A DNA stretch of 42,951 nt from Candidatus Colimorpha onthohippi (GTDB lineage: Bacteria; Bacteroidota; Bacteroidia; Bacteroidales; P3): assembly GCA_018064565.1 (NCBI GenBank), contig JAGHVA010000058.1, positions 1 through 42,951 on the forward strand, given 5' to 3'. The notes under the pieces were generated by a model. That model saw only the letters and a program-made list of their open reading frames with translations. It was not told the DNA's origin and ran no database searches. Below are positions 15,986-37,117 of the stretch, in pieces. Every line of letters begins with the position of its first letter. Within the stretch, counting starts at the first letter, position 1. A program made the translations under genes and the position numbers.

Positions 15986-18900
15986 CTACCTGATAAGCAG
16001 AACTGTGCCAGTCTCATACTGCCATGCTTTTGTAACAATACTGGTCTGGTAATGCAACCGATAGACATACGCTCCTTGAGGACAGATTTCTCCGTCAAAA
16101 CGACCGTCCCATCCTTCGTTGATGTCAGTAGTATGAAATACCAACTGACCGCGGCGATTGTAGATAAACATCTCGAAGCCATCTATCTGACTGCTTTTTA
16201 CCATGAATCTATTATTCGACGACTCGCCAGGCGTAAACGCATTGGGGACAAACAATACAGGTTTCAAAATCGGAATTTTGGCATAGGCCGTATCACGGCA
16301 ATAGTCTGTATAGACCTCCAATGCTACCGACACTGTATCAGATACTGGATTGACTGTGTAGCGCAGCGATGGACCAACTTCACCTTGCATTACACCATCC
16401 ACATACCAATAACGAGCATATACATTGGGGTTCATATCCATTGCCTCCAAGAGTAGGTCGTCGTACGAAAAATACTCAGGTGTGGTCTTCAGCATTGCTT
16501 TTGGATTCACAATAGGATTGAGTGTGATACTCTTGGACGATGGACACAAAGCGTCATACCGATAGTCAGAATACAAGACATACGTTGTAGTAACCTTAGG
16601 CGAGACAATAATCGTGTCTTCAAATTCCTGACCTACCAAAGATGGATCTTCTGGAGTAGCTGACCACTTGTAATACTTCATATCCGTAGATAATGAAATC
16701 TCATGGAACAACTCCGAACAATTCGCATGTGAGACTAACACATTATTTGCCGAAGGCAACTCTGTCAAAAACAGAACCGTGATGCTGTCGCACCCATGAA
16801 CCGTCTGTAACGAATCATAATAAGTGCCTCCTGAAGCCAACCCTCGACCTCTAAAAATATATCCCATTCCCTCGCACATCGAATCCAATATCTCATCGTA
16901 TGTATTGTAGAACAAACTCAAGTCGAGCGTAACCAAACTATCGCATCCTTTTGTTGTTCGCAACATATATTGAGGACCAGATATAGACGCATCATACGTA
17001 ACTCCATTCAGCCACGTAAACGTATTGCACTCGTTATGGTGGTGCGTGGCAGGTGTAGCGTGATTAACAGTTAATCTTAAATGAATCACACTATCACAAT
17101 TCACAGCATTACGCAATCGTACACTCTCGGAGATAGTTGAGAACAGATAGGTGCTGTCGTTACGCCAAGTAAACGTATCGCAATGCTCTTGCACATCGTT
17201 CGACCAAGAGGTGTCTCGAACTGTAACCGTCATGATAACCATACTATCGCGCAACCCATTCGACGTGCGCAGTAAAACACTATCGACCGACGACTCAAAA
17301 AACGAGACATGATTCCAGACCAATGGTAAAGTGTTGTTACATACCGAACTATCCAAATTAACCAACCTATTAACCACTAAATGCATATACCAAACACTAT
17401 CGCACTGATGGACGCTCAACAGCGAATCAACATAAGTACTATCAATATTATAGGCATGCCCAGCAAAATAAGACCACTGATTCTCAAATATGGTATCATA
17501 CCTATCGTACTCAAAGGTAGGATATTTTTGCAGATGGAATGTCCAGACGCTGTCGCACTGTAGCGAAGAGTTGATATGGCGAATATCGGTACCCGTCTCC
17601 GTATATACATTACCAAAGAAAAATGCCACCGTATCATCACAAATAGTATCAAACCTATGATAATCGTATGTCGGATTGACCGTCAACAACATAGATACCA
17701 CACTATCCGCACCCGTATGCGCCAAGATGGTTCCCTTCATAGCGATTACACCAGATTTACTTTTACCCTCCAGCAACTCATCTGGCAGCGAATCGCTAAC
17801 AAACTCAGCATTATTCCAAATCCAAGGCAACTGATCTGCGCAGATAACCGAGTCGTCTGAGCCTGTTACATTCGGATGAACATACAAATTATATACAATC
17901 ACACTATCACACCGTTTCGCATTTCGGATGATGATGGTAGAGTCAACAATTGTGGTTTTATCGCAGAACGGAACCCCATTAAACACATAACATCCCTCCA
18001 CGAGGGTTTGATTCTCCACAATTGTATCATAAATAGTGGATGAGCTGTTGCCATATACCGTAAGGTTTAACGTTCTTACACTATCGCAACCAAAACGGGA
18101 CGTAGAATCCGAAATATACTGATGAACTCCCACAGCAACACTATTTGCAAGCAAAGTGGTGTCATGCCACTGATAATCCTCTTTCATCCTATTCTCACAT
18201 ACCACACTATCTTCTACCACATGCCATGTTGGATGCACAAAGAGATTGAACACAATATTACTGTCGGCTCCATGAGTGGTCAGGATTTTGATACGTTGCG
18301 AAGATCCTCCCTGCTTCGGGTTACCACCAAACGCATTTGCATTGAACGTAGTAGTATAACCCGCAGTAGTCCATGTATAAGGCAACTCCTGACCGCAAAC
18401 CGTGTCATAGACATTTGTGTCCCGATTCCACCATACATGAAGGTTATAACTTAACAAGCTGTCGCAACCTTTGACATTTTTAAGTTTTATCGTATAGTCT
18501 GTCACCTCTCCCCAATGTGGGATAGTATAACTCGGGTTCTGGTATGCCAGATTGCACGACCCGTCTCTAAAATAAATTCCATTGTGATAATACCCATAGT
18601 AGTAGCCATACCACCAACTGCCATGTTGATCGCTCAAGCGATTCTGAACCACTGTATCATATTCAGCCCCATACGTTACTGCATTAACAGTAAGCTTCAA
18701 TGTAACAATGCTGTCGCAACCATAACGCGCAGTCACCGCCTCATTTCTATAAGTACCGGCCGTCGATAATTTAGCTCCATTAAATGTATATGACTCATTC
18801 TCACATATTGTAACAGGCAACACATAATCATAATGAGGCAATGTATCCACCTTATAAACCAATACACTATCCGCACCCGTCGAAGCCGTAATCGTACGGA

Positions 18901-21049
18901 AATTACGCCCTATACTATTGAACGTGAAACCATGCCAGTCAAGTGGAAAATGATTATAACAAATCTGCGTATCTATCACTGTTGACGAGTTACGTTTCAC
19001 AGCCAAATTGTATATCACAATGCTATCACAACCTTCGTTCTCAATTTGAATACGATAATTTTTAACCTCATCGTTAAATACTTTTTTATACGGTGTTCCC
19101 TGATATATCGTATCGGGCAGATAGTTCTCCAATATAGTATCGTAAATAGTTCTTGTCGGATTCTGAATAGTATGCAGCGTCATGATTACCAAACTATCCG
19201 CCCCATGAATATTTCGCGTCTTGTATTCCTTGGTACCCACACTCGTAAAACGCTGTCCGTTCCATGTGAAAGGCAAATCAGTGGCGCAAATTGATGAGTC
19301 AACACGAACCGTATCGTTACGGTAAACAAATAGATGGTATTTGATAACACTATCGCATCGATTGATATTACCTTTCGCATAGCGTGCCACTCTATAACCA
19401 TCTCCCGTACCATACACATCTTTTGCCGTAAACACTTGATCATAATAAGTCTTGGGCAACTGATTCTGGACAATGGTATCAAACGCCTCTCCCTCCGAAG
19501 TGTCTTTTACACTTAAAATAACCAACACGTTACTATCACAACCGTGTACAGAAGGCAACACACAACTATAACGACCTTCTTCAACTGCCGACATACCATT
19601 ACAATAGGAATACGGATTATTGTTACATATAGTAGGCCGCTGCGTAATATTATAAGTGGGATTTACTTTAAGCGTCAGCGTGATGATGCTATCACAACCG
19701 CTGACGGTAGTGAATTTTTTGGTATATTTCTGAGCTTTTTTGCAAATAGTACCATAAAAATCGTACGTCTCGTTATCGCATATCGCCTCTTCTCTTGAAA
19801 TCGCATAACTCGGAGCCATCACGACAGTCATCTTCAACAAACTATCCGCACCCGTATGCGCCACTAAAATAGCATTCTGCTGACCCTCGCTACGGAATGT
19901 CTGACCGTTCCAACGAAATCCAGACTGCGACTCGAGCACATTTTGGCATACTGTGGAACATGCTTCTGCCGTAACATTCGGATAAATTGTTAGCCCGTAT
20001 GTGATTATGCTATCACATCCTACGGAATTAGGGACAATCACCGTCTGGTTGTTTGCTCCCGAAAGATCCGTGTAAGTATAACCGTTGTAGGTATATGGCA
20101 GCTGGTTTTGTACGATAGACTCTCCCACCGTTTTTGAGCTGCTGTGACGAACCGTGAGATTTAGCGTAATCACACTATCACACCCCACAGCATTCTGCAA
20201 AGACACCTGATCAGTGGTTGATGCCGAATATGTCCTACCAAACGGATTCCATGTATAATTATCACAGACATTCTCTGTTATCGAACTACTTGTCGAATAG
20301 TTGATTCTAAGATGCAATGTCGTGGTAGAATCACAGCCCACCGCATTCGTGGAATGATAAATCGGATTGTCAGACCGTGTATAGGTAGTACCATGCCATG
20401 TGTACTGGTCGCACTGCGTCAGCGAATATTCGTAGGAAGAAGAATAATTGACGACAAGCAACAAGGTTACCGCACTATCACAATTCACCCTATTGGAGAG
20501 ATGCGCCACATCCGTTGTACTCTCCGTATAGGTCATGTTGTTGTTTGGCCAATAGTACTCGTCGCACTGCGGACCAGGATTAAACTGACTTTGAGTACTT
20601 TTTCGGATAGTTAACTCTAATGTTTTGATACTATCACAAATATTTTTAATCGCCCCTTTTAAGGTTTTGTTATACGTGCCTGATACAGTATATGTCTCAC
20701 TTTTACCTGATGTATAATTCCATGTATAACTATCGCATACATCAATCGAAGTGGTTTTACTTGAAGTCTTGTATATGACTACATTATACACTACATGCTC
20801 GTCTTTGCCCGTTGATCCGTATTTCCGGGTAAATTTATATGGTTCACCCGTAGAAGAGGTAAACGTCTTGCCGTTAAAAGACCTTGAGTCACATGCAGTA
20901 TCATAAATTGTAGTGGTATATGCTCCCCCAGAAAAAACGGTAGTCTGAGACATGTGTTCGGTCTGCGACATCACAATATTAGCAAACGATCCGAACAGCA
21001 GCAGCGAAAACAAAGTCCGAAAATCAATATGTTTGAGCCTAATATTCAT
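15986..21049 (-). CDS. Giant secreted repeat protein (about 25 GCDS-type modules) with T9SS type-B sorting domain
   Basis: 1687 aa; signal peptide MNIRLKHIDFRTLFSLLLFGSFANIVMSQ; recurring CDxYTW/VENQLPY...GCDSxxTLxLxV modules; C-terminal PNAFTPG...FEMFIYNRRGQLVFHTTDINEGWDGRFDGEICPQGAYVYRLHY...GTVLLIR. Confidence 0.93.
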   Translation of the reverse strand: MNIRLKHIDFRTLFSLLLFGSFANIVMSQTEHMSQTTVFSGGAYTTTIYDTACDSRSFNGKTFTSSTGEPYKFTRKYGSTGKDEHVVYNVVIYKTSSKTTSIDVCDSYTWNYTSGKSETYTVSGTYNKTLKGAIKNICDSIKTLELTIRKSTQSQFNPGPQCDEYYWPNNNMTYTESTTDVAHLSNRVNCDSAVTLLLVVNYSSSYEYSLTQCDQYTWHGTTYTRSDNPIYHSTNAVGCDSTTTLHLRINYSTSSSITENVCDNYTWNPFGRTYSASTTDQVSLQNAVGCDSVITLNLTVRHSSSKTVGESIVQNQLPYTYNGYTYTDLSGANNQTVIVPNSVGCDSIITYGLTIYPNVTAEACSTVCQNVLESQSGFRWNGQTFRSEGQQNAILVAHTGADSLLKMTVVMAPSYAISREEAICDNETYDFYGTICKKAQKYTKKFTTVSGCDSIITLTLKVNPTYNITQRPTICNNNPYSYCNGMSAVEEGRYSCVLPSVHGCDSNVLVILSVKDTSEGEAFDTIVQNQLPKTYYDQVFTAKDVYGTGDGYRVARYAKGNINRCDSVIKYHLFVYRNDTVRVDSSICATDLPFTWNGQRFTSVGTKEYKTRNIHGADSLVIMTLHTIQNPTRTIYDTILENYLPDTIYQGTPYKKVFNDEVKNYRIQIENEGCDSIVIYNLAVKRNSSTVIDTQICYNHFPLDWHGFTFNSIGRNFRTITASTGADSVLVYKVDTLPHYDYVLPVTICENESYTFNGAKLSTAGTYRNEAVTARYGCDSIVTLKLTVNAVTYGAEYDTVVQNRLSDQHGSWWYGYYYGYYHNGIYFRDGSCNLAYQNPSYTIPHWGEVTDYTIKLKNVKGCDSLLSYNLHVWWNRDTNVYDTVCGQELPYTWTTAGYTTTFNANAFGGNPKQGGSSQRIKILTTHGADSNIVFNLFVHPTWHVVEDSVVCENRMKEDYQWHDTTLLANSVAVGVHQYISDSTSRFGCDSVRTLNLTVYGNSSSTIYDTIVENQTLVEGCYVFNGVPFCDKTTIVDSTIIIRNAKRCDSVIVYNLYVHPNVTGSDDSVICADQLPWIWNNAEFVSDSLPDELLEGKSKSGVIAMKGTILAHTGADSVVSMLLTVNPTYDYHRFDTICDDTVAFFFGNVYTETGTDIRHINSSLQCDSVWTFHLQKYPTFEYDRYDTIFENQWSYFAGHAYNIDSTYVDSLLSVHQCDSVWYMHLVVNRLVNLDSSVCNNTLPLVWNHVSFFESSVDSVLLRTSNGLRDSMVIMTVTVRDTSWSNDVQEHCDTFTWRNDSTYLFSTISESVRLRNAVNCDSVIHLRLTVNHATPATHHHNECNTFTWLNGVTYDASISGPQYMLRTTKGCDSLVTLDLSLFYNTYDEILDSMCEGMGYIFRGRGLASGGTYYDSLQTVHGCDSITVLFLTELPSANNVLVSHANCSELFHEISLSTDMKYYKWSATPEDPSLVGQEFEDTIIVSPKVTTTYVLYSDYRYDALCPSSKSITLNPIVNPKAMLKTTPEYFSYDDLLLEAMDMNPNVYARYWYVDGVMQGEVGPSLRYTVNPVSDTVSVALEVYTDYCRDTAYAKIPILKPVLFVPNAFTPGESSNNRFMVKSSQIDGFEMFIYNRRGQLVFHTTDINEGWDGRFDGEICPQGAYVYRLHYQTSIVTKAWQYETGTVLLIR
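15989..16264 (-). other. T9SS type-B / gliding-motility-associated C-terminal sorting domain (CHU_C/TIGR04131-like)
   Basis: Final 92 aa: KPVLFVPNAFTPGESSNNRF...IYNRRGQLVF...GWDGRFDGEICPQGAYVYRL...GTVLLIR. Confidence 0.92.
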
Positions 21050-21107
21050 AGGATTATCAAAATTAGCAAAGTAAGTATGTACAAATCTATGATTTCAATA
21101 TATAAAC

Positions 21108-24100
21108 CTATCTTAACAACATTATAGTACCTGTAACCTCTTGATAGGAATCTGGCTTGGCAATATCTCGATATCGAATGGTATAGATATACGATCCCTG
21201 CGCACAGAACACATCATTATGCTTGCCATCCCATCCTTGATTGATATCTCTTGTCTTGAATACCAACTGACCTGAACGATTGTAGATATACATCTCAAAT
21301 TCCAAGATACCTACACCTTTTGCCATAAACACGTTGTTAGTTGACAGATATGGTGTAAACGCATTAGGCAAATATAACGTAGGTTTGCGCATCGGTATAA
21401 CCGAATAAGCCGAATCTCTGCATAATCCGTTGTCAACTTCCAGCATTACCTTGACCGAATCCAACGACTCATTAGCCAGATAACGATACACACTATTATG
21501 CTCCCCATTCTGCATAAAATCGTTGATGTACCAATTGCGAACCTCGTATTGCTCACCAATATCATAAGCCTCTACCCATAAGTTATCATACGACAGATAC
21601 TCTGGAGAAGTACGTATTACCGCCTTAGGCAGCGACAACGGCATAAAACTAATTGAGGAACTGGCTGGACAACGAGGAGACTCAACATAATCTGCATACA
21701 TGTAATACGTTGTAGGCTGACTGGGCTTGACTCTTATGCGACTGTTAAACTCTTGATTCAACAACGAAGAGTCAACGGGTACTGACGACCACTTGAAATA
21801 ATCCACATCCGTTGAAACCGTAAGTTCATACGTTGAGTCGGCACAATACTTGGTTGACATAATCTCAATCAGCGGTGTGGGCAATTCCGTCAAATGCAAC
21901 ACAGTGATACTGTCGCAACCCTCTATCGTGTATAACGAATCGAAATACGTACCAGCACGTGTCAACCATCTGCCTCGGAAATTGTATCGATGTCCCAAAC
22001 ATACAGAATCCGAATACTCATGATATGTGGAATATGGGACATGCAAATCCAATGTTACCAAACTATCGCATCCATGTATGGTCTTGAACAATTTTTGCGG
22101 ACCATAGATAGTACTCGTATAGGTATGGCCATCGACCCATGTATGTGAATTACATTTTATCAAGTGGTCGCCTGTCTCTACTGAATAATACACCACCAAA
22201 TCCAGATGCACCACACTATCACAACCAACGCTATTGGTAAACATACGGTATGGTTTCGTTGTGGAAACGGTATATGTCAAACCGTTATCCCATGTATAGA
22301 CATCACAGACCTCGTGATGATCGTAAATAGCCGACGTATCCAGGATTGTGATATCTAAAACCAATAGGCTGTCAGCACCACGAGATCCCTCAAGGACAAC
22401 GGTGTCAACCATTGTTTGACGATAGCTATTTGTGTGCCACTCAAACGGCACATGATTGTTACATACCAACGTGTCGAAAAATGTAACCTGGTTGACCCAT
22501 AAGTGCATTGTGGTCAAACTATCGCAATGATGAATGCTCTTGGTCCCATAAAAATAATCGCCAATTTCAAAACAGTCGTAAGGTCCAAACACATACGGAT
22601 TGACTGGACTATAAATGCCATACATAGCCGCCTTATCCACCTGTGTGCTATAATACGCAGTATCGTAATACTCATCATTATACAAACGGTAAATACGCAA
22701 CAAGATAGACGACACACTGTCGCATCCTAAATAAGACCTTAACGTATCATCATAACGGAAGGTTTTATCGGTGGTTGGCGATGAAAATTGGAAAGTGGTG
22801 TCGTTGAAGTGAAACGTTTGATCGGCACATATGGTGTCGTAAAATACGGTATCAAAAGTCGGATTCACATGCACATGCATTGTCAATGTACTATCAGCAT
22901 CAGTCGATGCGATAAGCTTTACTTGCTGTGCAATATCGCCACTCCGGAAAGATTCTGATGGCAACGAAGCTGCATAAAATGTCTTTCCGTTCCATACAAA
23001 CGGCAGTTGACTATAACAGATTGTGTCGAAAGCATCGGCAAAGACGTTACGCCGAATACGCAATGAATACGTTACAGCACTATCACACCCATATATATTT
23101 TGGATGTGTATCAGCGAATCCACAATATCGTCCTCAAAAATATAGCCATGGTAGTTATATGGAAGGCTATTCTCAACTACACTCTCAAGAACGACTCCTT
23201 CTGTATTTGCGCGAGGAGTTAGGTTAAGCCGCATGATACTATCGCAGCCATACATCGACACTGAATCACCTACATAATCTTTAGGCAAAGATCCTTCTGG
23301 GGGCATGATACTTTTGTGCCGCCAAACCAATGGAATATCTTTGGACGCCAGACAGCTGTTTAATGTGTCGTATTGCGCATATTCAGGATGAACGGTTAGA
23401 CGCATCGTCAGCAAACTATCAGCACCTGCTGCTGTATGAAGCAACACAATCGTATCAATCCTCCCCGCCTGGGTAGCAAAACTGGATTCAGGGTCTTGCC
23501 GGAGACTATCAGCCACAAAACGCACATTATTCCACACATACGGCAACTGAGAGTAACAAATCTCTCTATCCGCGGTAGCTCGGACATTGGGATGCAACAC
23601 CAACGTGTAATGCACATTGCTGTCGCAATAGGGTTTTGCCGCACGACTGCCAACCACATCTTCTACTACAGTATCGCCCAACATGAAATCCGACAGCCTG
23701 AACGTCCTTGACAAAAAGGTATATGGCAACTGATTTTCCACTACCGACTGTTCGATTGTGTCAAACCGAGGTGTATCAACCACAAGCCTTAGGCGAACCA
23801 CACTATCGCAACTATACGATGCAGTATGCAAACTATCTGACCAAAACACTGATGTATCAAAATCATGAGCAGCAAAACGAACTACAGTCCCCTTGCAAAC
23901 AGCACTATCTATCACATAGTCATACGCAGGGTACGTATGCATCCTGAGCACAAGGACACTGTCTTCGCCTCCACTCGCTGTATGCCTATCATACAACGTA
24001 CCTTTTTGTTGAAACTCAACACCTCTCCATGTAAATGGGAAAAGATTCTCACAAATAAAAGTATCTACTGGAAACTGCTGATTCCACCTGACATTCACCG

Positions 24101-26057
24101 TATAATCAATGATACTATCACAATTATTTGCGTTGGCTATAATCACCTTTGTATGAGAGATGCTATCCTCAAACCGATGCCCGTGGAACGTAAATCCCAA
24201 TCCATTCTCCACCACCGTAGTATCCTTAACACTATACGTATTCTGTTTGATTTTTAGACGCATCAAGACAATACTATCTGCTACCGTATCGTGGTATGAC
24301 ACCGTTGAAAACAACGTCTGAGTCTGCTCACCCTGTTCCGAAAAGACTTTACCGTTCCATGTAAACGGAATACTATTTTCACAAATGGAGGAATCAACAG
24401 TCACACGGATATTGGGAATCACTTTTAGATTGTACTGAATCAAACTATCACAACCCGCAGCGTTTTTGATTTTTACTGCCGTATTACTAAACCCGCTAAG
24501 ATCTCTGCATATCTTACCATTATAATTATACGGCAAACTGGTCTCTACGATAGTGTCATATACTGTACTCATTGTTGATGACGAAATCCGGAGTTTGAGG
24601 TGAGTAATACTATCACAATCATACACTTTGGTTTTTTTTCTATCCTCATCCTCGTAGGTTCCTGCATTTTTATAGGTAGTCTCGTTAAATGTGTATTGAC
24701 TTGGCTTGCAGATGCCCGTATCGATTGTATTGTTGTACGATGGATGGATATGAAGCGTCAGTGCCACAGTACTATCCGCTCCTGTAGAGGCACCCCCAAT
24801 TATTACATGACGCAGGGTAGTGTCTTCCCTATCTGCTGGGAAAGCATCCTCGAACGAATATTCATACCATACAAACGGCACTTCGTTGTCACACACATTG
24901 GAATCCGTATAACCCGTAACATTCCACGATACATGCAACGTAAAACTCACAACGCTATCGCACCCTGCCGCATTCAAAGAGTCAATCCGGCAATTTGTAA
25001 CCTCTCCATGAAACGTGGTATCAAAAAAATCAAATGGCAAGAAACGTTCTGGCACTGTCTTGGTAATCGTACTTGACGTATTATTGCGCAATCTCAAATT
25101 AAGAATCATTGATGAGTCGCACATATTCCTATTCATCAAACTCAATGTATCGTGCGCACTGCCGGAATATTTCTGACCATTATACGACCATACATAGTAC
25201 TCATCCACACATGTGTCAACATTGTCCCGAATGGTATCCGTGCTGAATATATCCAGATGCAGCACTCTCAAGGAATCACAGTTCTCGGCATTGGCCTCCG
25301 AATGCACAACCGAGTCGGTCGTTGAAACGGTATAAACACTATCGTTCCAATCCCAATAATACCTATCGCAACCACGATCATACCCCTCGCTACGCGACTT
25401 ATGACGAATCGTAAGGTTTAGCGTACTATACTTTTTGCAGACGCCATCAGTTCCGGTAACTATCTTTGTCTCTGTACTTTCTGTATAGGTACTATCCGAT
25501 AACGGCCAATAATATTCATCACACTTGCTTTCCTCAATAAGCTTATTCGACGACTCGACAATTGTAAGATTCAACGTTCTAATACTATCACATTGCATAG
25601 CATTTTTACCTACCATCTTCACGATCGTAGAGGTAGTACTACTATACAATACCGTATCCCCAACCCATTCAAAAGAATCACAAGCAACTTCTACATCCTC
25701 AACACGACTATTAGTCCGCAAATACAACCGCAAAGTAATCACTGAGTCATAATACTTACCGTTTTTGTAAATTGTTTCTGTGATTTCATCATCTATAACT
25801 TTAACGCCTCCGTCATTGTTAGGATTTGAATAAGGCTTTCCTAAACAAGAATACGTCACACAAGCAGTATCCACAACACTCGTTCTAAACGTTCCTTCCA
25901 CACCTTGTCTTGGAGATACAGGATCAAATGTTGTGATTATCGTCGGCACCCATTGCGCTTGCACTACCGATGAAAACAAGAAAAACAAAGTAAGAAATGC
26001 CCACTTACGATTTTTTCCAAACTTCATGATATACAGATTACGGCTATTCATAAACAA
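21108..26057 (-). CDS. Giant secreted repeat protein, paralog of the downstream gene, with T9SS type-B sorting domain
   Basis: 1649 aa (probable start MKFGKNRKWAFLTLFFLFSSVVQAQ at 26027); about 24 GCDS-type modules; C-terminal PNAFTPYLSTNNVFMAKG...FEMYIYNRSGQLVFKTRDINQGWDGKHNDVFCAQGSYIYTIRY. Confidence 0.93.
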   Translation of the reverse strand: MFMNSRNLYIMKFGKNRKWAFLTLFFLFSSVVQAQWVPTIITTFDPVSPRQGVEGTFRTSVVDTACVTYSCLGKPYSNPNNDGGVKVIDDEITETIYKNGKYYDSVITLRLYLRTNSRVEDVEVACDSFEWVGDTVLYSSTTSTIVKMVGKNAMQCDSIRTLNLTIVESSNKLIEESKCDEYYWPLSDSTYTESTETKIVTGTDGVCKKYSTLNLTIRHKSRSEGYDRGCDRYYWDWNDSVYTVSTTDSVVHSEANAENCDSLRVLHLDIFSTDTIRDNVDTCVDEYYVWSYNGQKYSGSAHDTLSLMNRNMCDSSMILNLRLRNNTSSTITKTVPERFLPFDFFDTTFHGEVTNCRIDSLNAAGCDSVVSFTLHVSWNVTGYTDSNVCDNEVPFVWYEYSFEDAFPADREDTTLRHVIIGGASTGADSTVALTLHIHPSYNNTIDTGICKPSQYTFNETTYKNAGTYEDEDRKKTKVYDCDSITHLKLRISSSTMSTVYDTIVETSLPYNYNGKICRDLSGFSNTAVKIKNAAGCDSLIQYNLKVIPNIRVTVDSSICENSIPFTWNGKVFSEQGEQTQTLFSTVSYHDTVADSIVLMRLKIKQNTYSVKDTTVVENGLGFTFHGHRFEDSISHTKVIIANANNCDSIIDYTVNVRWNQQFPVDTFICENLFPFTWRGVEFQQKGTLYDRHTASGGEDSVLVLRMHTYPAYDYVIDSAVCKGTVVRFAAHDFDTSVFWSDSLHTASYSCDSVVRLRLVVDTPRFDTIEQSVVENQLPYTFLSRTFRLSDFMLGDTVVEDVVGSRAAKPYCDSNVHYTLVLHPNVRATADREICYSQLPYVWNNVRFVADSLRQDPESSFATQAGRIDTIVLLHTAAGADSLLTMRLTVHPEYAQYDTLNSCLASKDIPLVWRHKSIMPPEGSLPKDYVGDSVSMYGCDSIMRLNLTPRANTEGVVLESVVENSLPYNYHGYIFEDDIVDSLIHIQNIYGCDSAVTYSLRIRRNVFADAFDTICYSQLPFVWNGKTFYAASLPSESFRSGDIAQQVKLIASTDADSTLTMHVHVNPTFDTVFYDTICADQTFHFNDTTFQFSSPTTDKTFRYDDTLRSYLGCDSVSSILLRIYRLYNDEYYDTAYYSTQVDKAAMYGIYSPVNPYVFGPYDCFEIGDYFYGTKSIHHCDSLTTMHLWVNQVTFFDTLVCNNHVPFEWHTNSYRQTMVDTVVLEGSRGADSLLVLDITILDTSAIYDHHEVCDVYTWDNGLTYTVSTTKPYRMFTNSVGCDSVVHLDLVVYYSVETGDHLIKCNSHTWVDGHTYTSTIYGPQKLFKTIHGCDSLVTLDLHVPYSTYHEYSDSVCLGHRYNFRGRWLTRAGTYFDSLYTIEGCDSITVLHLTELPTPLIEIMSTKYCADSTYELTVSTDVDYFKWSSVPVDSSLLNQEFNSRIRVKPSQPTTYYMYADYVESPRCPASSSISFMPLSLPKAVIRTSPEYLSYDNLWVEAYDIGEQYEVRNWYINDFMQNGEHNSVYRYLANESLDSVKVMLEVDNGLCRDSAYSVIPMRKPTLYLPNAFTPYLSTNNVFMAKGVGILEFEMYIYNRSGQLVFKTRDINQGWDGKHNDVFCAQGSYIYTIRYRDIAKPDSYQEVTGTIMLLR
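21111..21386 (-). other. T9SS type-B / CHU_C-like C-terminal sorting domain
   Basis: Final 92 aa aligns residue-for-residue in length with the paralog's CTD. Confidence 0.92.
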
Positions 26058-27332: not shown

Positions 27333-28418
27333 TTAGAACCGGAATGTTCCACCGATAGTATGGGTTCCCTTTAGCGGAGAAGCTGAACGGTAAGAGTAAT
27401 CAAGGGTTATACCCGTTTTTGCCTTACCATTAGCATCCTTCTTTGAGAGAGGGATATCCACCGATGCACCTGCACACAATCCCGTATTGGTTGTGGTACG
27501 GTCTGACGAGCTAAATATATCGGATTGATACACATAGCCACAACGGACCTGAAACATATTGAGCATACCGTACTCAACACCTAAGGCAAAATTGTCTTTC
27601 AGGAAAGCATTCGATGTAAAAGATCCCGCCACAGAGAGTTTCTGATTCAAATTTTCAAAAAGAAAATCGTACGAGACACCAATATTCAAGCAAGTAGGCA
27701 ACTCCATCTCGGCAGCGCGAGTCTCAACGGTGAAATTGTTACCTGCGTTATTGAGCATAGTCAAAGAATGACCCGTACCAGAGAAACTCATCGTAGCACC
27801 GATATTCTTAAGACTGATACCGAATTTCAACTCATCATCAGCACCAGTAACATACTGGATACCTGCATCGATAGCAAAACCAGAAGCAGACACATTGTCG
27901 GTTGACTCGCTTATGATTTTAATCACACCACCACCATGGATACTACGCGTAAACGAATGCGCATATGCCAAAGCTATATTCATGAAAGATGGGTTGAATG
28001 AACCAGCCGTACCTGGTGTTGGGTTCTCTACGGTAGTTACATCAATATCGCCAAATCCCATAATCATTACTTGAGCACCTAAAACACCTGCCTCAAAGAC
28101 ACGGATACCCATACCTATGGCATTGATAGATGCACCACTATTGAGACCTGTCTTGCCTCCTAAATAGATGGTATTGGCGTATGCAAACTCCATATTGTCA
28201 ATGAAAGCCAGACCTGCGATATTGGAATAAAAAGCATCGATACCACGCACGTTGGCCACCGAGACACTACCCCAACCAGAGCTATGAGCCCATGGGTTAA
28301 TAAGAAGCTCGGTAGCACCTGCTGTACCGCGACGGTTGTCGTTACCAGCCCAAACTGGCTGGACCGACACCATCAACACGACGGCAACGATGGCGAATAT
28401 TTTGGTTAGATTTTTCAT
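27333..28418 (-). CDS. PorV/PorQ-family outer membrane protein
   Basis: 361 aa; signal peptide; GTAGATELLINPWAHSSGWGSVSVANVRGIDAFYSNIAGLAFIDNMEFAYANTIYLGG typical of PorV/PorQ/UPF0164 barrels. Confidence 0.88.
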   Translation of the reverse strand: MKNLTKIFAIVAVVLMVSVQPVWAGNDNRRGTAGATELLINPWAHSSGWGSVSVANVRGIDAFYSNIAGLAFIDNMEFAYANTIYLGGKTGLNSGASINAIGMGIRVFEAGVLGAQVMIMGFGDIDVTTVENPTPGTAGSFNPSFMNIALAYAHSFTRSIHGGGVIKIISESTDNVSASGFAIDAGIQYVTGADDELKFGISLKNIGATMSFSGTGHSLTMLNNAGNNFTVETRAAEMELPTCLNIGVSYDFLFENLNQKLSVAGSFTSNAFLKDNFALGVEYGMLNMFQVRCGYVYQSDIFSSSDRTTTNTGLCAGASVDIPLSKKDANGKAKTGITLDYSYRSASPLKGTHTIGGTFRF

Positions 28419-28449: not shown

Positions 28450-31400
28450 TTAGAATTGGAAAGAATTCAAGTCAACTGGGCGCATAGTTCCAAACCACTT
28501 GATAACACGTTCACCAATATTAGGTACACTGACATGAATAAGATACATACCTCCAGCAATAGGAATACCCATATGGTTATGAAGATCCCAATCGTATGTA
28601 GTGGTATTAGCTGGAGTTGGACCAAGACGGCGCACCAACGTACCATCAACGGTATAAATGCTGATGACTGAATTGGCTGGCAGATTAGTAAAACGAACTT
28701 TTGTTTCAAGCTGACTTAAGGTCTCATAGGTTGAATAGCTATAGTACGGATTTGGCACAACAGCTATTGCCTCAAGAATCTCATTCTTCTTGCTATCAGA
28801 AGCACCATCCTTGGTAGCTTGTTCTGTAAGCGTTGCAATATCGCCCGACAAGTCGAACATATAACGCGGCATATTATCATTTTTCACCTCCTCACCACAA
28901 TCTTTTGCATCGGTAGCATTATAACTCATGTAGCGACCATAAGGCTGGTTTACTTGAATATCAACCGTAACATCACATGCAATACCATCGGAAGGCGCAC
29001 CAGCATTGAGTTTGCTGTTATGTCCTGGATAATTGAATGCGAATTTCTTGTTAACCAAAGGAATATTAACCCAAGCCGCAGAAGCAAAGAGCATAGCAGA
29101 AGAGTCACGCGTCGAATTGATTTTATCTGTAGCCGTCATACCAGCCGAACCTTCGCTCGAGACAATACCATAATAGTATTTAGGTGTATCACCCTTATCC
29201 TTGAGCATCAACAAGCGATCCAACGACTTAATCATCGAATTAGCCCAAGCACCTGCGTCATAAGAAGGCGTTTCATACTGATGGATGCCTGAACTCGAAC
29301 CTACCGCACCTGGGAAGTTGAGCGTTGTTGCATTGAGCACATAGATAAAGTGACGACCTCCCATAACATAATTCTCTGTGCCATTCATAACCTCATCAAC
29401 GGGGTTCCACAACATGTCGCGACCGTTGAACTGAATGTAACGCGAATCTTCACCGAACATGATATTCAAACGTTCACCAGTGGTCAAAGAAATTGCATAG
29501 CCTGGGAACCATCCCATACCATAAGCATCAATATATGCTGGATTGGTAGGATCCGATGGGTTGGCGGCAATGCCAAGATCCTCGATGGTACGCCCTAACT
29601 TATCTACAGACAAATGTTTGCGTTTTTGGAACTTACGAGCTTTACCCTCTGCTTGTGTGTAATCGTCGCACATCTCAAGGACAGGACAACGTGTCCACTT
29701 AGTGGTATCCGCTGTAAACACAATACGTACACTTGGCAACTTAGTCAAATCGTTATATACCAACGACTGATTGTAGGTATTATCAAGCAACGAACGTCTG
29801 ATTTTACCATACACATACGCATTAGCAGCATCTTTTTTATGTAATTTTGCAATGGTATCTGCGGGAGGCATAAAGTGTGAGTAGTTGAATCCTGGATGGA
29901 AATCAAGTGTTGAAACCAAGCCATAAGGAGCCCACATACCACTCACCACATCCTCAAAGATATTGCTCTTATCCACACCGACAGCAGTGGCAGAACCAAC
30001 TTCTTGGCTGGTCTCGCATTTACGACGAAAATAATCTTCATCAAGATAGGCTTCAGACAAAGAGATATCCTCAAGTCTTCCCGTAAAGTCATTGACCGTG
30101 TTGGATGCAAACTGGATACCTGCGCGAATCCAGTTGTACATCTGCGCACCATCGTAGTCGTTGACACCATAAAGCCACTGCTTATAGGGATCCTCATAAG
30201 TGATAGACGAACCCAAAATCGCATTAGAACTTGCAGTATTGCCATAGTATGTGCAATAGTTATACTCCGATTCCGAACCGTTGATAAACATACCGCTTAC
30301 TTGTAAGGGATCGGCTGGAGCATCTGCATTCTTGAGCGACACAGCGATGCCCAAATCAAGGAAAAGCTGTTCGTTTTGGCGACCAATAGCAAAATCAGAA
30401 TAAATGGTATCAGCACCTCCTGGATACACTGGCTGACCCTCGATAGCATTGGTGATATACCAACGAGTTTTTTCATTTACAATGGAGGAACCATCTTCGT
30501 TCACGAAATTGATTATAAACTGACCTGGCTTGATATTCAAAGGATCAATCACCTTAACATCAATAGGCCCGTAGTTTTGCTCATATTTAGGATGTGCGAT
30601 AATACAAGGGTTAGAAACACGAGAGATTGAACCACTGCGGAAGGTGAATTTGCCAGGACCTTTGCCCTCTACACCTTTAGCACCCATCAACTCTTCAATT
30701 GATTCCTGTGTAAGCATCAACTGATTTCCACCATTACCATAACCCTCAATACGAGTAATATTAGGACGCATCTCAAACTCAGCCTGGATAACAGTGCCAC
30801 CATTCTCAGCTGAAGGATCATGAGGAATAGCCGTCACGGGCTTAATCGAATTTCCCCACTCATCTTTACGTCCTGAAAGGTATGGTTCTTTCTGACCGTC
30901 AAGGAAAGCAGCCTCTGTTTGAGAATACTCTTTATAGCGGTTGTGAGCATATGCCACAGCCACAAAATAATACTCCTTGTTATTGACCAAAGCAGTAGAA
31001 GAACCTGTTGCAAACTGGTCGCTGGTGATGCGGAACACATGCTGTATGCCTGAATTGGCACCATCTACCTTAACCGTACCTGAAAGAATACCCGTAGCAG
31101 AGTTGGTCTCAAAGTTGACCAATTTAGCAATCGGAAGCGTCTTGGCCTCATCATAATAGTTTTCAATATCGCACTGTGCCACCAGACGAGCTTTAGTAAC
31201 ATCGTTGATATCAGAAATAGACGCATTGGCATCAACCAACTGGTAAATCTGATAACCCTCAAACACATAACTACGCTCCTCATCGGTGTAGGTACCCGTA
31301 GTGGCTACACCATCAACAGTCGTAGAATACGAACGAGTAATAGAAGGATCAACCTCACTATATTTTTCATTGTAGTTATTAGACGAAACATTATCGTATG

Positions 31401-33327
31401 AGAGATAGAGAATAATCTCTTTATTTAACTCCTGAACAGTAATAGTAGGAGCATCTGGACCATCCAAGACCTTAAAGCAGTTTTCGAAAAGTGCCTGACA
31501 AACATCATCTACCTCACGAAGCAGTTCCACTGACGACCAAGCATTGCCAGAAGCAGCCTGAGCAAAAGGAATACCTACCGTGATGTAGTTCAAAGCACCA
31601 GGTCTCAAAGTGAAAGGACCTGCCGACTGCATGAAACGACGGTCACCTGGCTGGTTGCCAGCAGTTTTATCCGTCCATATCTGACCACCATTCCACACAG
31701 GGTCAACGCCATTGGTACCCCATTTCCAAGGATCGGAATCACCAGGGAACATGAAGTCACAAACCACATTGGTGGTATTGTCGTTAAAACCATTTCCACC
31801 AAAAGTCATACGCTGACTATTTTTCCAATTACCTTTCAAGTAATTATAATAATCGGTAGCCTTGCCTGGGTCGCTAATTTGAGCAGTACCACCATTGTTG
31901 TAGTACACAAAACGACGCATACCAAAACGCTCATCATCAACAATACCGTTGCCGAAGTTCACACCATTGATAGCGCAGTTGCCGATAGAGTCACCAGGTT
32001 TGAAATACCAACCATCTGGGTAGAATATATCTGCCGACTGCGTTAGAGCAAACGTATCGTATATTGTATTGCCATTAGCGTCTTTCATCTCAAAGGCAGC
32101 CAGTTGGCTAATCATAACACCATTACCACTTGCCTTGATTTTGTCAATATCAATCTTGGGATTATCCTTACCATCAGGATCCATATAAGGACCTTGGAAG
32201 AAATCGATACCCACAGCAGGAGGGATTCCAGAATAAGTCGCAGAACCAGGACCATCTTGCTCATCACCATTGTAGCAATAGCCCAAACCACGTTTTACAT
32301 CACATCCCACATAGTCGTCGTATGCATAACCGAGATCGGCATCCACCCACTGCGAAAAATAGGTATCTTTCAACGTGTAGGTTGAACGGTTGATAATCTC
32401 GTATGAATAGAATGTCATGTTGTTGATATCATCGTTGGTAGAGAATGCGAAAGCCTGAGCGCGAATTTCAAGACCTATCGGCTGACCATCAGTCTCAGTA
32501 TGGACATTACCCATGTCGTTGAATATCCACCAAATAGTCTGGTCGCCTTTCAACACCTGGTCCGAGAGGATGCCACCATGGACAATACCCTCAGTAGTTT
32601 CCATCGTGGGAACCGATATATCCAAACCGTTAGACTTACGTGTCTGTGGACACAAATCGTTGTCAAAGTCATAATACGGATAGTCGCCAGCCTCAGGATT
32701 ATACTCGCCATTACCATCAGCGTCAAAGAAAGGAGCAAGATACTTGGAGAAACCCTCAGCGGTATTGCCATGGGCTGGCCAATTTTCAATCACATCCTCC
32801 ATTTCTGTAAGGGGGTTGTCTGGATTAGGCTCAACACCCGCTTCGGTATAGATAAAGTGAGCCATGTGATTCTGAACCTGCTGCTTGCTGATGATATAAT
32901 GCCTATCATACTGGTTGCAAACAGGGAGGTCAACATAAGCGGTATTCAACTGCAATGGGCCTGGCCAAAAATCGTCGCCAGAAGAACCGAACGTAAGAGC
33001 GGCAATACGGAGCTGCTCGTTAACATCGGTACCACCGACCCAAAGAGCCGCGCAATAGAGCGGGCAAGCGTTGCCGTTTTTAGGCAGGTGATACTGAGCA
33101 ATAGAGCCATCGTACCACATATTACCATAGCCATTGATACGGGCGCGGACATTGTTTACGCTAAGTTCGGCAGAACTTTGTGCACGCTTACATACTGCAG
33201 CCTTTTGCTCAGTTTTTACACTCTTTACCTTTTTAAGTTGGCTTTGAGGTTCACGAGCGAAAGCAGACCCCGCAGTGGCAGAGATAATAAGAGCTGCCAA
33301 AAGGAAATTACAAAGTATATTTTCCAT
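28450..33327 (-). CDS. Very large exported protein with FlgD-Ig/Por_Secre_tail-like C-terminus
   Basis: 1625 aa; signal peptide MENILCNFLLAALIISATAGSAFA; DADGNGEYNPEAGDYPYYDFDNDLCPQ; C-terminal VRFTNLPANSVISIYTVDGTLVRRL...YDWDLHNHMGIPIAGGMYLIHVSVPNIGERVIKWFG. Confidence 0.85.
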   Translation of the reverse strand: MENILCNFLLAALIISATAGSAFAREPQSQLKKVKSVKTEQKAAVCKRAQSSAELSVNNVRARINGYGNMWYDGSIAQYHLPKNGNACPLYCAALWVGGTDVNEQLRIAALTFGSSGDDFWPGPLQLNTAYVDLPVCNQYDRHYIISKQQVQNHMAHFIYTEAGVEPNPDNPLTEMEDVIENWPAHGNTAEGFSKYLAPFFDADGNGEYNPEAGDYPYYDFDNDLCPQTRKSNGLDISVPTMETTEGIVHGGILSDQVLKGDQTIWWIFNDMGNVHTETDGQPIGLEIRAQAFAFSTNDDINNMTFYSYEIINRSTYTLKDTYFSQWVDADLGYAYDDYVGCDVKRGLGYCYNGDEQDGPGSATYSGIPPAVGIDFFQGPYMDPDGKDNPKIDIDKIKASGNGVMISQLAAFEMKDANGNTIYDTFALTQSADIFYPDGWYFKPGDSIGNCAINGVNFGNGIVDDERFGMRRFVYYNNGGTAQISDPGKATDYYNYLKGNWKNSQRMTFGGNGFNDNTTNVVCDFMFPGDSDPWKWGTNGVDPVWNGGQIWTDKTAGNQPGDRRFMQSAGPFTLRPGALNYITVGIPFAQAASGNAWSSVELLREVDDVCQALFENCFKVLDGPDAPTITVQELNKEIILYLSYDNVSSNNYNEKYSEVDPSITRSYSTTVDGVATTGTYTDEERSYVFEGYQIYQLVDANASISDINDVTKARLVAQCDIENYYDEAKTLPIAKLVNFETNSATGILSGTVKVDGANSGIQHVFRITSDQFATGSSTALVNNKEYYFVAVAYAHNRYKEYSQTEAAFLDGQKEPYLSGRKDEWGNSIKPVTAIPHDPSAENGGTVIQAEFEMRPNITRIEGYGNGGNQLMLTQESIEELMGAKGVEGKGPGKFTFRSGSISRVSNPCIIAHPKYEQNYGPIDVKVIDPLNIKPGQFIINFVNEDGSSIVNEKTRWYITNAIEGQPVYPGGADTIYSDFAIGRQNEQLFLDLGIAVSLKNADAPADPLQVSGMFINGSESEYNYCTYYGNTASSNAILGSSITYEDPYKQWLYGVNDYDGAQMYNWIRAGIQFASNTVNDFTGRLEDISLSEAYLDEDYFRRKCETSQEVGSATAVGVDKSNIFEDVVSGMWAPYGLVSTLDFHPGFNYSHFMPPADTIAKLHKKDAANAYVYGKIRRSLLDNTYNQSLVYNDLTKLPSVRIVFTADTTKWTRCPVLEMCDDYTQAEGKARKFQKRKHLSVDKLGRTIEDLGIAANPSDPTNPAYIDAYGMGWFPGYAISLTTGERLNIMFGEDSRYIQFNGRDMLWNPVDEVMNGTENYVMGGRHFIYVLNATTLNFPGAVGSSSGIHQYETPSYDAGAWANSMIKSLDRLLMLKDKGDTPKYYYGIVSSEGSAGMTATDKINSTRDSSAMLFASAAWVNIPLVNKKFAFNYPGHNSKLNAGAPSDGIACDVTVDIQVNQPYGRYMSYNATDAKDCGEEVKNDNMPRYMFDLSGDIATLTEQATKDGASDSKKNEILEAIAVVPNPYYSYSTYETLSQLETKVRFTNLPANSVISIYTVDGTLVRRLGPTPANTTTYDWDLHNHMGIPIAGGMYLIHVSVPNIGERVIKWFGTMRPVDLNSFQF

Positions 33328-33353: not shown

Positions 33354-36300
33354 TTAGAAATTATAAGAGAGTGATAATTTAATATGACGCGGCGAGGAAT
33401 AATTCCAAGTAGCGTTGCTCATATAGATGGTATATAAGTCCCTAAACGACTGAGGGTCAAGATACGAATTGATGACCGCCTGAGTCTCTGGGTCGGTAAG
33501 ATAACCATTGTCGGTCGGGCTACCCGTTACAGCAAACACGCCCACAACATTGCGGATATCGAAGAGGTTGTTTACAGTAATAGCAGTATTGAGGTAGGTG
33601 GTACGTTTGCCAACCTTGATAGGCCAGTTCTTATCCACGATAACATTGCAATAGAAACCCCATGGCAAACGAGCTCCGCGATAAGATCCAACGATAGTAC
33701 CTTGGGTCATACTGAACTGTTTCGTATAAGGACGTCCAGACTGCGCGACAACCATAAAGTTCACACCAAAGTCCTCCAACAATTTGACCTCTTTCTTGCG
33801 TTGTTCACCCGTCTCTGGATCGGTAACCACGCGGGTGATGGTAGGTCCGTTGTACTTAGAACCACTGCCATAACGGAAGTCAACGTTTGCCTTAATCTCG
33901 TGACGACGGTCGTCCGAAATTGGGTTCAACATCTTAAGCGTAGTATAACCCTCTTTGATAAGCTCGGTCATAGTAGATGATGAAAGACCCGTTCCTTCGG
34001 CATATTGCAAAGTATAGTTCGCATTGATACGCACATTCTTGGTTTGACGGAGGTCATAGCTGAACGTGAAACCCTTGATAGTTTTGAAATCCAAGTTGTC
34101 GTAGCTATAGTAGTTTTGGTTAGGATCGGCACCAGCATACTGAACAAGCTGTATAAGGTCGCGGGTCTCCTTATAGTAAGCGGAGATACTGACCGCAGAA
34201 GAAGAATTCAGAGCCTGTTGGAATCCCAACTCGTAGTTGGTGATACGTTCTGGCTTAAGATTAGGATTGGAGATTGAAGACATTTTGCTCATATAGAGGT
34301 ATCCCAAATAATTGGCCTGCCAACTTGAGGAAGGACGACGAGCGATAATGTCGTACGAAGCCTTGAACTGCGAGTTGTCGCCAACTGGGAAAGAGAATGC
34401 GATACGAGGCATTACCACCACTTGAGGTTTGTAATCCTCAAATGCTTCGGTACCTACCGTATTATTCTGCTTAGCGCAGTACCCTTGGCTGTACGATACG
34501 GCGTTGGCTGACCAGACTTACCAGCAATATTGCTTGGTGATGCAACCTCAACACCATTGGCATTGTACCAGACAGAACCATTACGATAACCCAAAATATT
34601 AGGTTTGGCAGCTGTAGCATCATCAACATAAACCACCCAGTCGTCGCCAGCACCATTATAGATTTTACCACTATACTGAGCAGCACCTTTGTTCAAGTCG
34701 CCAACAGTGTAGGACTCATACAACAAATAGGGGTCTTTTAGCACATATTGGTTTCCGTCAAAATAGTCAAGACGAACACCGACATTGAAGATAAGATCTT
34801 GGAAATAGAACTTATCCTGGATGTAACCAGCCATGTAGGTAGGTGAGAATGCGGGGAGGTAACGGTAATTGGCATGACCTGCGGCTGAAGGATTGTAGAA
34901 ATCCTCAAGAGTCCAGTTGCGACCGTTATACTTCTCGCCAGTGTGGTCATACCCATTATAACTCACATAGGACGAACCCTGATTAAACAGCTCATCGGTC
35001 GAGAACATCTTGATACCACCAGCGGAGACAAAATCATCTGGAGAATAACGGTCGATATCAATCCACGAAACATCGTTTTTAGCCATACCTAAATATTGAC
35101 GCATGGCAATATCGAACGACTCCTGCTGATCAGCAACATACAAAGGGTCATAATCCACGTAAAGGTTTGAACCCTCCCAGCGATAATTAGGATTGGAAAA
35201 GTCCAACTGCTGGATATGCTTGTTAGCCTCTTGACGCATAAGCGTCCAAAGACCATAAGCATTAAGTGAATAAGACGCTGATGAGAAACGGTCATATTGG
35301 AAACCAATCTCAATTTCATGACCTTTAATCTCAGCAGATGCCTTGGCTTGGAAATAATAATAGTCCGTACGTCCGTATCCGAACGTATTGTCGGTTACAC
35401 CTACGTTGGTAAACAAACCATAGATACTGGCAGGGCCATCACCATTACGAAGACCTTTATACTCAATGAGGTCGTTGAAGTTGTTGATCGAACCCTTCAA
35501 ATCATCAATACCTAACAACTGTGTATTGTAATTTGCCAACACCTCATGATCCTTGTCGGGTGTAAACGACTCAATTTGGTCTCTCCAACCATTCTGTACA
35601 AAAGCAGATTGCTTAACACCATTATAATCAACCTGAGTAGCAGAGCTATAACTGCGAGACCGATTTGTTACAAACTGACCAATATAACCATATTTGAAAA
35701 TGTCGTCCAGAGATGAACCATAATTAGAGTTGTATGATTTGCTGTTCGAGCGGCTATACATGGCGGTGATGTTGTACATCACATTGGTAAGCAGTGCACT
35801 CTTCTTTGTCTCGGGGAGTGTTGCATCAGCAGGCTGATCGGTAGCATCGGGGAAACGCTGTGTGAAGTCGAGTGTGATACCATAGGTAGAACTCTCAGTT
35901 ACATTGACTCCCTGACGGGAAAGGTTAAGAGCCAATCCTGCCAAACTAGCACTTGGCGACTTCGAATACGCAAACTCCCCAGTAACCGTCAAAGTGGCAT
36001 AATCCGAGAAACGGAAATCGACCGCACCTTCAGCTGCGATGCCATACGAACTAAGATTTGGTACACGAGACTTGTCATCACCAAAATCAGAAGCCTTCGG
36101 ACGAGTAAATGTCACAAAGTCGTCCTTACCCAAGCAAGTCTCCGCAGTATAGTTCACAGCGCCTGTCAAAGGATCGTATGCCAATGGATTCTGTTCAATA
36201 TAACGCACAGTGGCATCGTTGACCATTTGATATCGGTTGCTCTTTACACGATACAGACCCGACTTGGTAAACGACCCCTGAGCAGTAAGACGGAATCCAA

Positions 36301-37117
36301 CGAGCGTACGCTCGGTAGTGCCACCACCCTCAAGATTGTATTTTTTCTTTACCAGTGGACCTGTCAAGTATGCCATCAAACTATTAGCCAGCCGATAATC
36401 GAGCCAACCCTCATATTTGATAATACCCTTAAACTGACTTGAAGGCGGTTTCAAGGTGATAATCTGAGTACCACCGATAGCCTCTCCGATGGAAGCTGGA
36501 GTACCGCCAAGGATAACCTGAATTTCAGCGATAGCTTCCTTAGGAGCCTGAATGCCCGTACGCTTACGGACACCGCCCTGCATGGTAACCATACCATCCT
36601 CACCACGAGCCGTGGATGTTCCACCATCGGAATAACCCACACCACCGACTGCTGCAACAATAGCATCAACTGACGTACCAGGCATACGTGCGATATCGTC
36701 AGAACTGAGACGCGATCCAGACTCAGGGGTACCGATTTCAATCACAGGGACTTTCTGCTCAACAATAACAACCTCCTCAAGGTTGGTTGCCGTAGGCACG
36801 AGCTGTACATCAGCGATAGTAAAACCAGAAGCAGTTACCGTGATACCCGTGCGAACATACTTCTGATAACCCACAGAGGACACCTCAATATCATACTTAC
36901 CCACAGGCAGAGGCTTGATGGTAAACACACCATCGAAGTCAGTCTGACCACCACGGATTTGCTGTCCATCCTGCTTGGCGACAACATTGACAAACGGCAA
37001 CGGTTCTTGCGTCTTAGAATCAGTAATTGTACCCTTGAGGGTACCTTGAGCCAGAGCCACAGACCCCGTAGCCACAAGGAGACCGATTGCCAACAGTACT
37101 TTTTTGAACATACTCAT
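33354..37117 (-). pseudogene. TonB-dependent receptor (carboxypeptidase-regulatory-like domain, plug, barrel) interrupted by a frameshift
   Basis: N-part 34454..37117 (887 aa: signal peptide, GTLKGTITDSKTQEPLPFVNVVAKQDG..., plug IPxMPGTSVDAIVAAVGGVGYSDGG-type region) and C-part 33354..34421 (355 aa barrel ...PNLKPERITNYELGFQQ...PRHIKLSLSYNF) lie in different frames with a 61-nt co-open window at 34457..34517. Confidence 0.85.

Follow-up and report, generated by a model that had tools for sequence, protein, structure and literature searches.

Coupled loss of cysteines across module junctions in predicted T9SS-exported stalk proteins of Bacteroidales points to probable inter-module disulfide staples interrupted by unstapled joints

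In the extender repeats of RTX adhesins (MpAFP and its relatives), calcium ions in the linkers hold the junctions between repeats (PMC7493085). Rib domains are atrophied small Ig-like stalk domains that occur in tandem (PMC6936399; PDB 8yke and 6s5y), intramolecular isopeptide-bonded adhesin domains have been surveyed (PMC12617251), and disulfides matter in the gliding/T9SS apparatus, as in SprF-GldK (PMC12635249). Here we describe two large secreted proteins, A and B, encoded by adjoining minus-strand ORFs in a 42,951-nt stretch of DNA from Candidatus Colimorpha onthohippi (contig JAGHVA010000058.1; hereafter the window). Like MpAFP, they would be long bacterial stalks in which beta-sandwich modules follow one another in tandem and are stiffened where they meet, but the RTX stalks rely on calcium and type I export, whereas a disulfide and T9SS are predicted here. 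The sequences are unrelated, no RTX domain was found in Pfam searches, and MpAFP peptide-binding-domain entries were among the weak Foldseek matches of our two-module model. The best match of that model was the Rib structure 8yke, but at an E-value of 0.011 and a TM-score of 0.31 it is too weak for homology; with neither a Pfam match nor a PDB sequence match, the modules were not assigned to the Rib domains. Rib arrays are not known to have cysteine staples. The six-module model was best matched by PDB 9flp, the neck of GhpA from the grappling hook of Aureispira (E-value 6e-7, TM-score 0.20, 13% identity), which is also a Bacteroidota surface protein but gave no sequence match. Matches to BamA POTRA and pIgR had low TM-scores and were set aside as uninformative. 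A and B resemble SprB-type T9SS adhesins in being large surface proteins whose T9SS sorting domain is of type B; PorP/SprF genes were absent from the window and numbered three elsewhere in the genome. The disulfides of SprF-GldK link different envelope proteins, whereas those predicted here would join neighboring modules of one adhesin. Isopeptide-bonded adhesins likewise reinforce their stalk domains covalently, but by Lys-Asn/Asp bonds within one domain rather than by the Cys-Cys bonds between domains that we predict. Since the Foldseek matches are weak, we do not file the module under RTX, Rib or the GhpA neck; it appears to work like the junction-stiffened stalks by different means.

Both proteins begin with a signal-peptide-like hydrophobic stretch followed by SQ or AQ (Table 1); the annotated start of B is TTG, and an internal ATG is more likely. 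The sorting domain was recognized by PF13585 in A (45.1 bits) and B (40.5 bits; cut-off 27) and by TIGR04131 in A (35.8 bits; cut-off 35), with B at 29.1 bits falling below the latter cut-off. The names Ig_7-like and PKD-like are given to A by resemblance, as A itself has no Pfam match in that region. No Pfam or NCBIfam model covered the modules of A and B, nor those in the arrays of such modules from Saprospiraceae and Flavobacteriales. A sequence search of the PDB returned no solved relative, and a weak phmmer match to Crov588 was dismissed as a repeat artefact. Judging from their sequences, A and B are most likely T9SS-exported surface stalks of stacked Ig-like modules. They are far from alone: the same genome codes for many further arrays of these modules, and a match was present in 66 of 206 sampled Bacteroidales genera, with arrays reaching thousands of residues. 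In the literature searched, neither these modules nor the cysteine staple proposed below is described.

Table 1. Features of proteins A and B in the window, predicted disulfide staples of A, and V-G pairs with regular-like modules in other proteins. Module classes are defined in the text.
Protein or locus	Feature	Residues (aa)	Window position	Strand	Details
A	Whole protein		15986..21049	-	1687 aa; signal-peptide-like start, then 25 modules of ~50 aa in tandem, an Ig_7-like and a PKD-like domain, and the type B sorting domain (T9SS)
B	Whole protein		21108..26057	-	1649 aa; tandem paralogue of A, module types in identical order
A	First module	44-98	20756..20920	-	C1 present (C53), C2 absent
B	First module	about 56-113	25719..25892	-	C1 present (C66), C2 replaced (KYYDS)
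A	V	303-357	19979..20143	-	C2 = C345
A	G	358-413	19811..19978	-	C1 = C368, extra C364
A	V	517-577	19319..19501	-	C565
A	G	578-629	19163..19318	-	C588
A	V	630-686	18992..19162	-	C674
A	G	687-738	18836..18991	-	C697
A	V	791-874	18428..18679	-	C862, extra C832
A	G	875-940	18230..18427	-	C885
A	V	1001-1059	17873..18049	-	C1047, extra pair C1020/C1029
A	G	1060-1126	17672..17872	-	C1070
A	V	1178-1228	17366..17518	-	C1216
A	G	1229-1279	17213..17365	-	C1237
B	V	326-378	24924..25082	-	C366, extra C356
B	G	379-439	24741..24923	-	C389
B	V	494-548	24414..24578	-	C536, extra C517
B	G	549-605	24243..24413	-	C559
B	V	606-658	24084..24242	-	C646
B	G	659-710	23928..24083	-	C669
B	V	763-823	23589..23771	-	C811
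B	G	824-891	23385..23588	-	C834
B	V	951-1003	23049..23207	-	C991
B	G	1004-1066	22860..23048	-	C1014
B	V, degenerate	1125-1190	22488..22685	-	C1178, extra C1162
B	G	1191-1240	22338..22487	-	C1199
A	Ig_7-like and PKD-like domains	1433-1595	16265..16753	-	C1444, C1502, C1584
B	Ig_7-like and PKD-like domains	1394-1555	21393..21878	-	C1405, C1463, C1546
A	Type B T9SS sorting domain		15986..16252	-	PF13585 / TIGR04131
B	Type B T9SS sorting domain		21108..21371	-	PF13585; TIGR04131 under its cut-off
A	Predicted staples, block 1				53-138, 105-190, 162-239, 213-290, 262-345; then unstapled joint
A	Predicted staples, block 2				368-452, 424-504, 475-565; then unstapled joint
A	Predicted staples, block 3				588-674; then unstapled joint
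A	Predicted staples, block 4				697-778, 749-862; then unstapled joint
A	Predicted staples, block 5				885-988, 951-1047; then unstapled joint
A	Predicted staples, block 6				1070-1165, 1137-1216; then unstapled joint
A	Predicted staples, block 7				1237-1318, 1290-1369, 1341-1420, 1392-1502, 1444-1584
L199	Regular-like V-G pair				AYDTYTW, then CESYEW..GADS
L060	Regular-like V-G pair				IPDSYTW, then CGSYQW..GGDS
L074	Regular-like V-G pair				VVTTNFTW, then VCDSLHW..GADS
L019 (own genome)	Regular-like V-G pair				AVDHFVW, then VCDSLVW..GYDS
L128 (with L129, L131)	Regular-like V-G pair				AYDSYQW, then LCETELPYEW..VYMDT; L129 and L131 labelled Paludibacteraceae
L012 (own genome)	Regular-like V-G pair				VNENELPYDW, then CDSFSW..GTDS

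Modules were classed by two core cysteines, C1 at module column 11 and C2 at column 43: regular modules (R) carry both, VEN-type modules (V) lack C1 and GADS-type modules (G) lack C2. The earlier note held that each V is followed directly by a G, and segmentation bore this out for all 12 V modules of the window (six dyads in A and six in B), with no solitary V and no interior G that lacks a preceding V; since B is a tandem paralogue of A (44% identity across the C-terminal 711 aa) and has its dyads at matching places, these are not 12 independent events. Its statement that the number of cysteines stays even in each dyad stands for the two core positions but not overall, as five of the 12 dyads have odd totals owing to extra cysteines (364 and 832 in A; 356, 517 and 1162 in B). 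The GCDS cysteine of a V module and the next IC cysteine, put at about 20 residues apart, are in fact 23 apart, and the same distance separates C2 from the following C1 in regular pairs (321 of 335 V-G pairs and 898 of 1014 R-R pairs in the wider sample). This constant spacing indicates that the modules abut without a linker.

For the wider sample, a module profile HMM was run over contigs of the same genome, family-level loci, further loci that a dyad alignment had retrieved from a genome collection, and an order-level set picked with an R-only query. Strict column labels gave 76 V-R and V-V pairs, most of which were regular modules shifted by one column and were relabelled. The resulting sample of about 2,000 adjacent pairs, drawn from many Bacteroidales genomes, comprised 335 V-G, 6 V-R, 0 V-V, 8 R-G, 186 G-R, 175 G-V, 1014 R-R and 166 R-V pairs. 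Of the 341 V-initial pairs that could be scored, 335 had G as the second module. In the order-level set, chosen with no selection for V or G, each interior V was likewise followed by G; the leftover V modules were mostly array-final and the leftover G modules mostly array-initial. Column-wise cysteine covariation, which the earlier note had proposed, gave a correlation between C1(n) and C2(n+1) far above chance (phi 0.97). Among 1,892 scorable pairs, both cysteines were present in 1541 and both absent in 336, so that 1877 were concordant and 15 discordant. The remaining correlations were 0.38 for C2(n) with C1(n+1) and -0.23 for C1(n) with C2(n).

The proposal that cross-links between modules explain the coupled losses was right in kind, and the coupling holds far beyond the genome of origin. 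The bonds themselves were probably misplaced. The earlier note had envisaged a C1-C2 disulfide within each R module and, in the dyad, a bond from C2 of V to C1 of G; the alternative is a bond from C1(n) to C2(n+1) everywhere, so that a V-G junction is one without both cysteines. Since the two schemes predict identical interior patterns, the dyad counts cannot discriminate between them, and the former accommodates the 335 of 341 concordant V-G pairs equally well. The invariant 23-residue distance from C2(n) to C1(n+1) would also suit it, but the same distance is kept in R-R pairs, where it has no cross-link. A third scheme, in which C2(n) always bonds to C1(n+1), was rejected, as it leaves orphan cysteines at 186 G-R and 166 R-V junctions.

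Five lines of evidence separate the first two schemes, beginning with the ends of the arrays. Under C1(n)-C2(n+1) pairing, a final module should be without C1 if no cysteine-bearing unit comes after it. Where the sorting domain lies at most 45 aa behind the array, 17 of 19 last modules lack C1 (17 V and two R); where another domain intervenes, the last module is V in only 7 of 80 cases and R or G in 73 (Fisher p = 9e-12, a value that overstates independence because the sequences are related). One of the two R exceptions, L184, looks mis-anchored, and the other, L132, has a cysteine directly after the module. At the opposite end, C2 is absent from first modules near the signal peptide in A, L109, L111, L114 and L023 and, by eye, in B; a missing C2 in the first module of A is expected of a module that has no predecessor to be stapled to. 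First modules that retain C2 have a cysteine just upstream (L059/L121, with GEYC in L059, and L206, with SNC). With bonds placed inside R modules and inside dyads, array-final V and array-initial G would each be left with an orphan cysteine, yet such ends are the rule.

A similar picture emerges from the domains behind the array. Where a PKD-like domain lies between the last R and the sorting domain, it typically has a single cysteine, in a GCxD(S/T) motif at the C2 position, and where a single domain separates the last regular module from the sorting domain the number of cysteines is odd in 30 of 37 cases. The lone cysteine of the PKD-like domain is again an orphan if bonds lie within modules. 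The combination of Ig_7-like and PKD-like domains typically has three cysteines (odd in 18 of 27), which is the number needed under C1(n)-C2(n+1) pairing: the last C1 would pair with the second Ig_7-like cysteine, and the first Ig_7-like cysteine with that of the PKD-like domain. In A and B the chain can be followed past the array as DC-like, LCP or RCP, and xCRD motifs. In three of the six V-R exceptions the module after V carries an added cysteine at its column 0 or -1 (PSC in L016, HPC in L019, GKC in L130), beside a C2 that would otherwise be an orphan; this again favors C1(n)-C2(n+1) pairing, and the location of such compensating cysteines is not accounted for by bonds within modules. Eight VEN modules, in L104, L106, L109, L113, L115, L075, L065 and L009, have a cysteine one column before C1 (DTCxENQ or similar) and are followed by G; these early cysteines are mostly partnerless, a possible partner near column 39' being seen only in L104 and L106, and they count against the pairing.

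Residue couplings bear on the same question. Mean-field direct-coupling analysis was carried out over module pairs with the cysteine columns masked, and the artefactual values of the masked columns were ignored. The first and last strands were coupled in parallel at an offset of 43, the mean z being 2.9 for the full set of pairs, 1.8-2.3 for subsets and about 0 for shuffled data. This offset aligns C1 with column 54 and C2 with column 0. C1 would then lie at the top of the module, where the first strand ends, and C2 at the bottom, where the last strand starts; the two cysteines are thus predicted to sit at opposite ends of the module, contrary to a bond within it. Across the junction, columns 54 and 41' (z 11) and 12 and 1' (z 8) were coupled, the former also in V-G pairs alone (z 8.9). 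The analysis gave no antiparallel hairpin signal between the last strand of module n and the first strand of n+1 (E(n)/A(n+1)), which is a further point against a bond from C2 of V to C1 of G. AF2 was used for secondary structure and confidence in a six-module and a two-module model, which agree with the couplings on strand positions; the model of a regular pair has five strands (pLDDT 94), with C1 ending strand A and C2 just before strand E. The parallel A-E couplings and the five-stranded model would suit an Ig-like fold, for which Foldseek gave weak matches. Taken with the array ends, the PKD-like cysteine and the compensating cysteines, these observations make the pairing within R modules and within dyads quite unlikely, and C1(n)-C2(n+1) is probably the pairing scheme.

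A different explanation is that the V-G dyad is a single ancestral two-module cassette spread by duplication, in which case the pattern would be inherited rather than selected and would carry no structural coupling. Much of the V-G count is indeed inheritance, since most modules find their nearest match within their own class (387 of 436 V and 389 of 428 G); A and B are themselves paralogues, and part of the direct coupling of C1 with C2' arises because V and G are separate subfamilies copied as cassettes. In spite of this, several families and proteins contain V-G pairs with at least one regular-like module (L199, L060, L074, L019, L128/L131 and L012; Table 1), and these probably represent separate losses of both cysteines. 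With cysteines masked, the best match of the V module in L199, L060, L074, L128 and L012 was an R module of another protein; the V of L131 and several G modules (L060, L128 and L131) did not have an R module as best match. Copying also fails to account for the end-of-array rules and the compensating cysteines. This explanation is disfavored, and we regard it as very unlikely.

We therefore return to bonds between C1(n) and C2(n+1), and consider it likely that A and B are stapled rods of the following kind. Five-stranded Ig-like modules of about 50 aa would be exported by T9SS and stacked end to end without linkers, and a predicted C1(n)-C2(n+1) disulfide would staple every regular junction, the chain of staples extending through the Ig_7-like and PKD-like domains up to the sorting domain. 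A V-G junction would be one from which the staple is missing, both partner cysteines having been lost together; such a junction would retain the abutting geometry and the 54-41' coupling in spite of lacking the covalent link, and the rod would consist of stapled blocks split by unstapled joints. V-G junctions occupy matching positions in A, in B and in related proteins encoded by other genomes (L059, L060 and L061). That such joints act as hinges or points of breakage is guessed from this conserved position and is the least certain part of the proposal.

Most cysteines of both proteins can be placed in this arrangement. Assigned by hand, 40 of the 48 cysteines of A fall into 20 staples (Table 1) and four more form two plausible local pairs, 483/496 and 1020/1029, leaving 364, 436, 832 and 1656 outside; in B, 38 of 43 are accommodated, with 71, 356, 517, 1162 and 1618 outside. 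The four or five cysteines left over in each protein count against the arrangement. The two extra pairs in A each lie within a single module. The pair 483/496 (in aa 475-504 of A) is also kept in L059, L060 and L061 of other genomes, which suggests a second, local disulfide.

Alternatively, C1(n) and C2(n+1) could be adjacent but reduced in the cell, or hold a ligand such as a metal. DsbA (PF01323) was found in none of 61 genomes of the family and VKOR (PF07884) in one, which leaves room for reduced thiols, and the bacteria concerned live in the gut or rumen. On the other hand, the junction brings only two cysteines together, and strictly pairwise loss is typical of disulfides; we think it unlikely, on balance, that the thiols are free or metal-bound. 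If the staples do form, the question is raised of how a family with no recognizable DsbA and, in all but one of the genomes searched, no VKOR makes dozens of disulfides per exported protein. A thioredoxin-fold protein (AhpC/TSA, DUF4369) is encoded at 4647-5696 of the window.

It is conceivable, with somewhat less than an even chance, that the cysteines amount to a joint code, in which cysteines at C1(n) and C2(n+1) specify a stiff stapled junction and the absence of both a programmed unstapled joint; the order of stapled blocks and joints, shared by the paralogues A and B and by related proteins of other species, would then determine how flexible giant Bacteroidota surface rods are or where they break, up to strictly alternating VGVG... 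arrays with every second joint free. If the staple rule is true, the stiffness of each joint in such a surface rod could be predicted from sequence alone.

Some further observations concern neighboring genes and related arrays. A 2282-aa ORF of the same genome (L009, contig C129) has an array that is almost purely alternating V and G, with 12 dyads; on the staple model, every second joint of this protein would be free. Near A and B, the window encodes a 1625-aa secreted protein (28450-33327) that belongs to no known family and whose tail resembles T9SS type A or FlgD only below the threshold. Just downstream of that gene lies one for a 361-aa protein (27333-28418) that matches PorV (PF19572) weakly, below the cut-off. 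Two adjoining minus-strand ORFs (33354-34421 and 34454-37117) appear to encode the barrel and the N-terminal portion of a single TonB-dependent-type outer membrane protein, split in this assembly.
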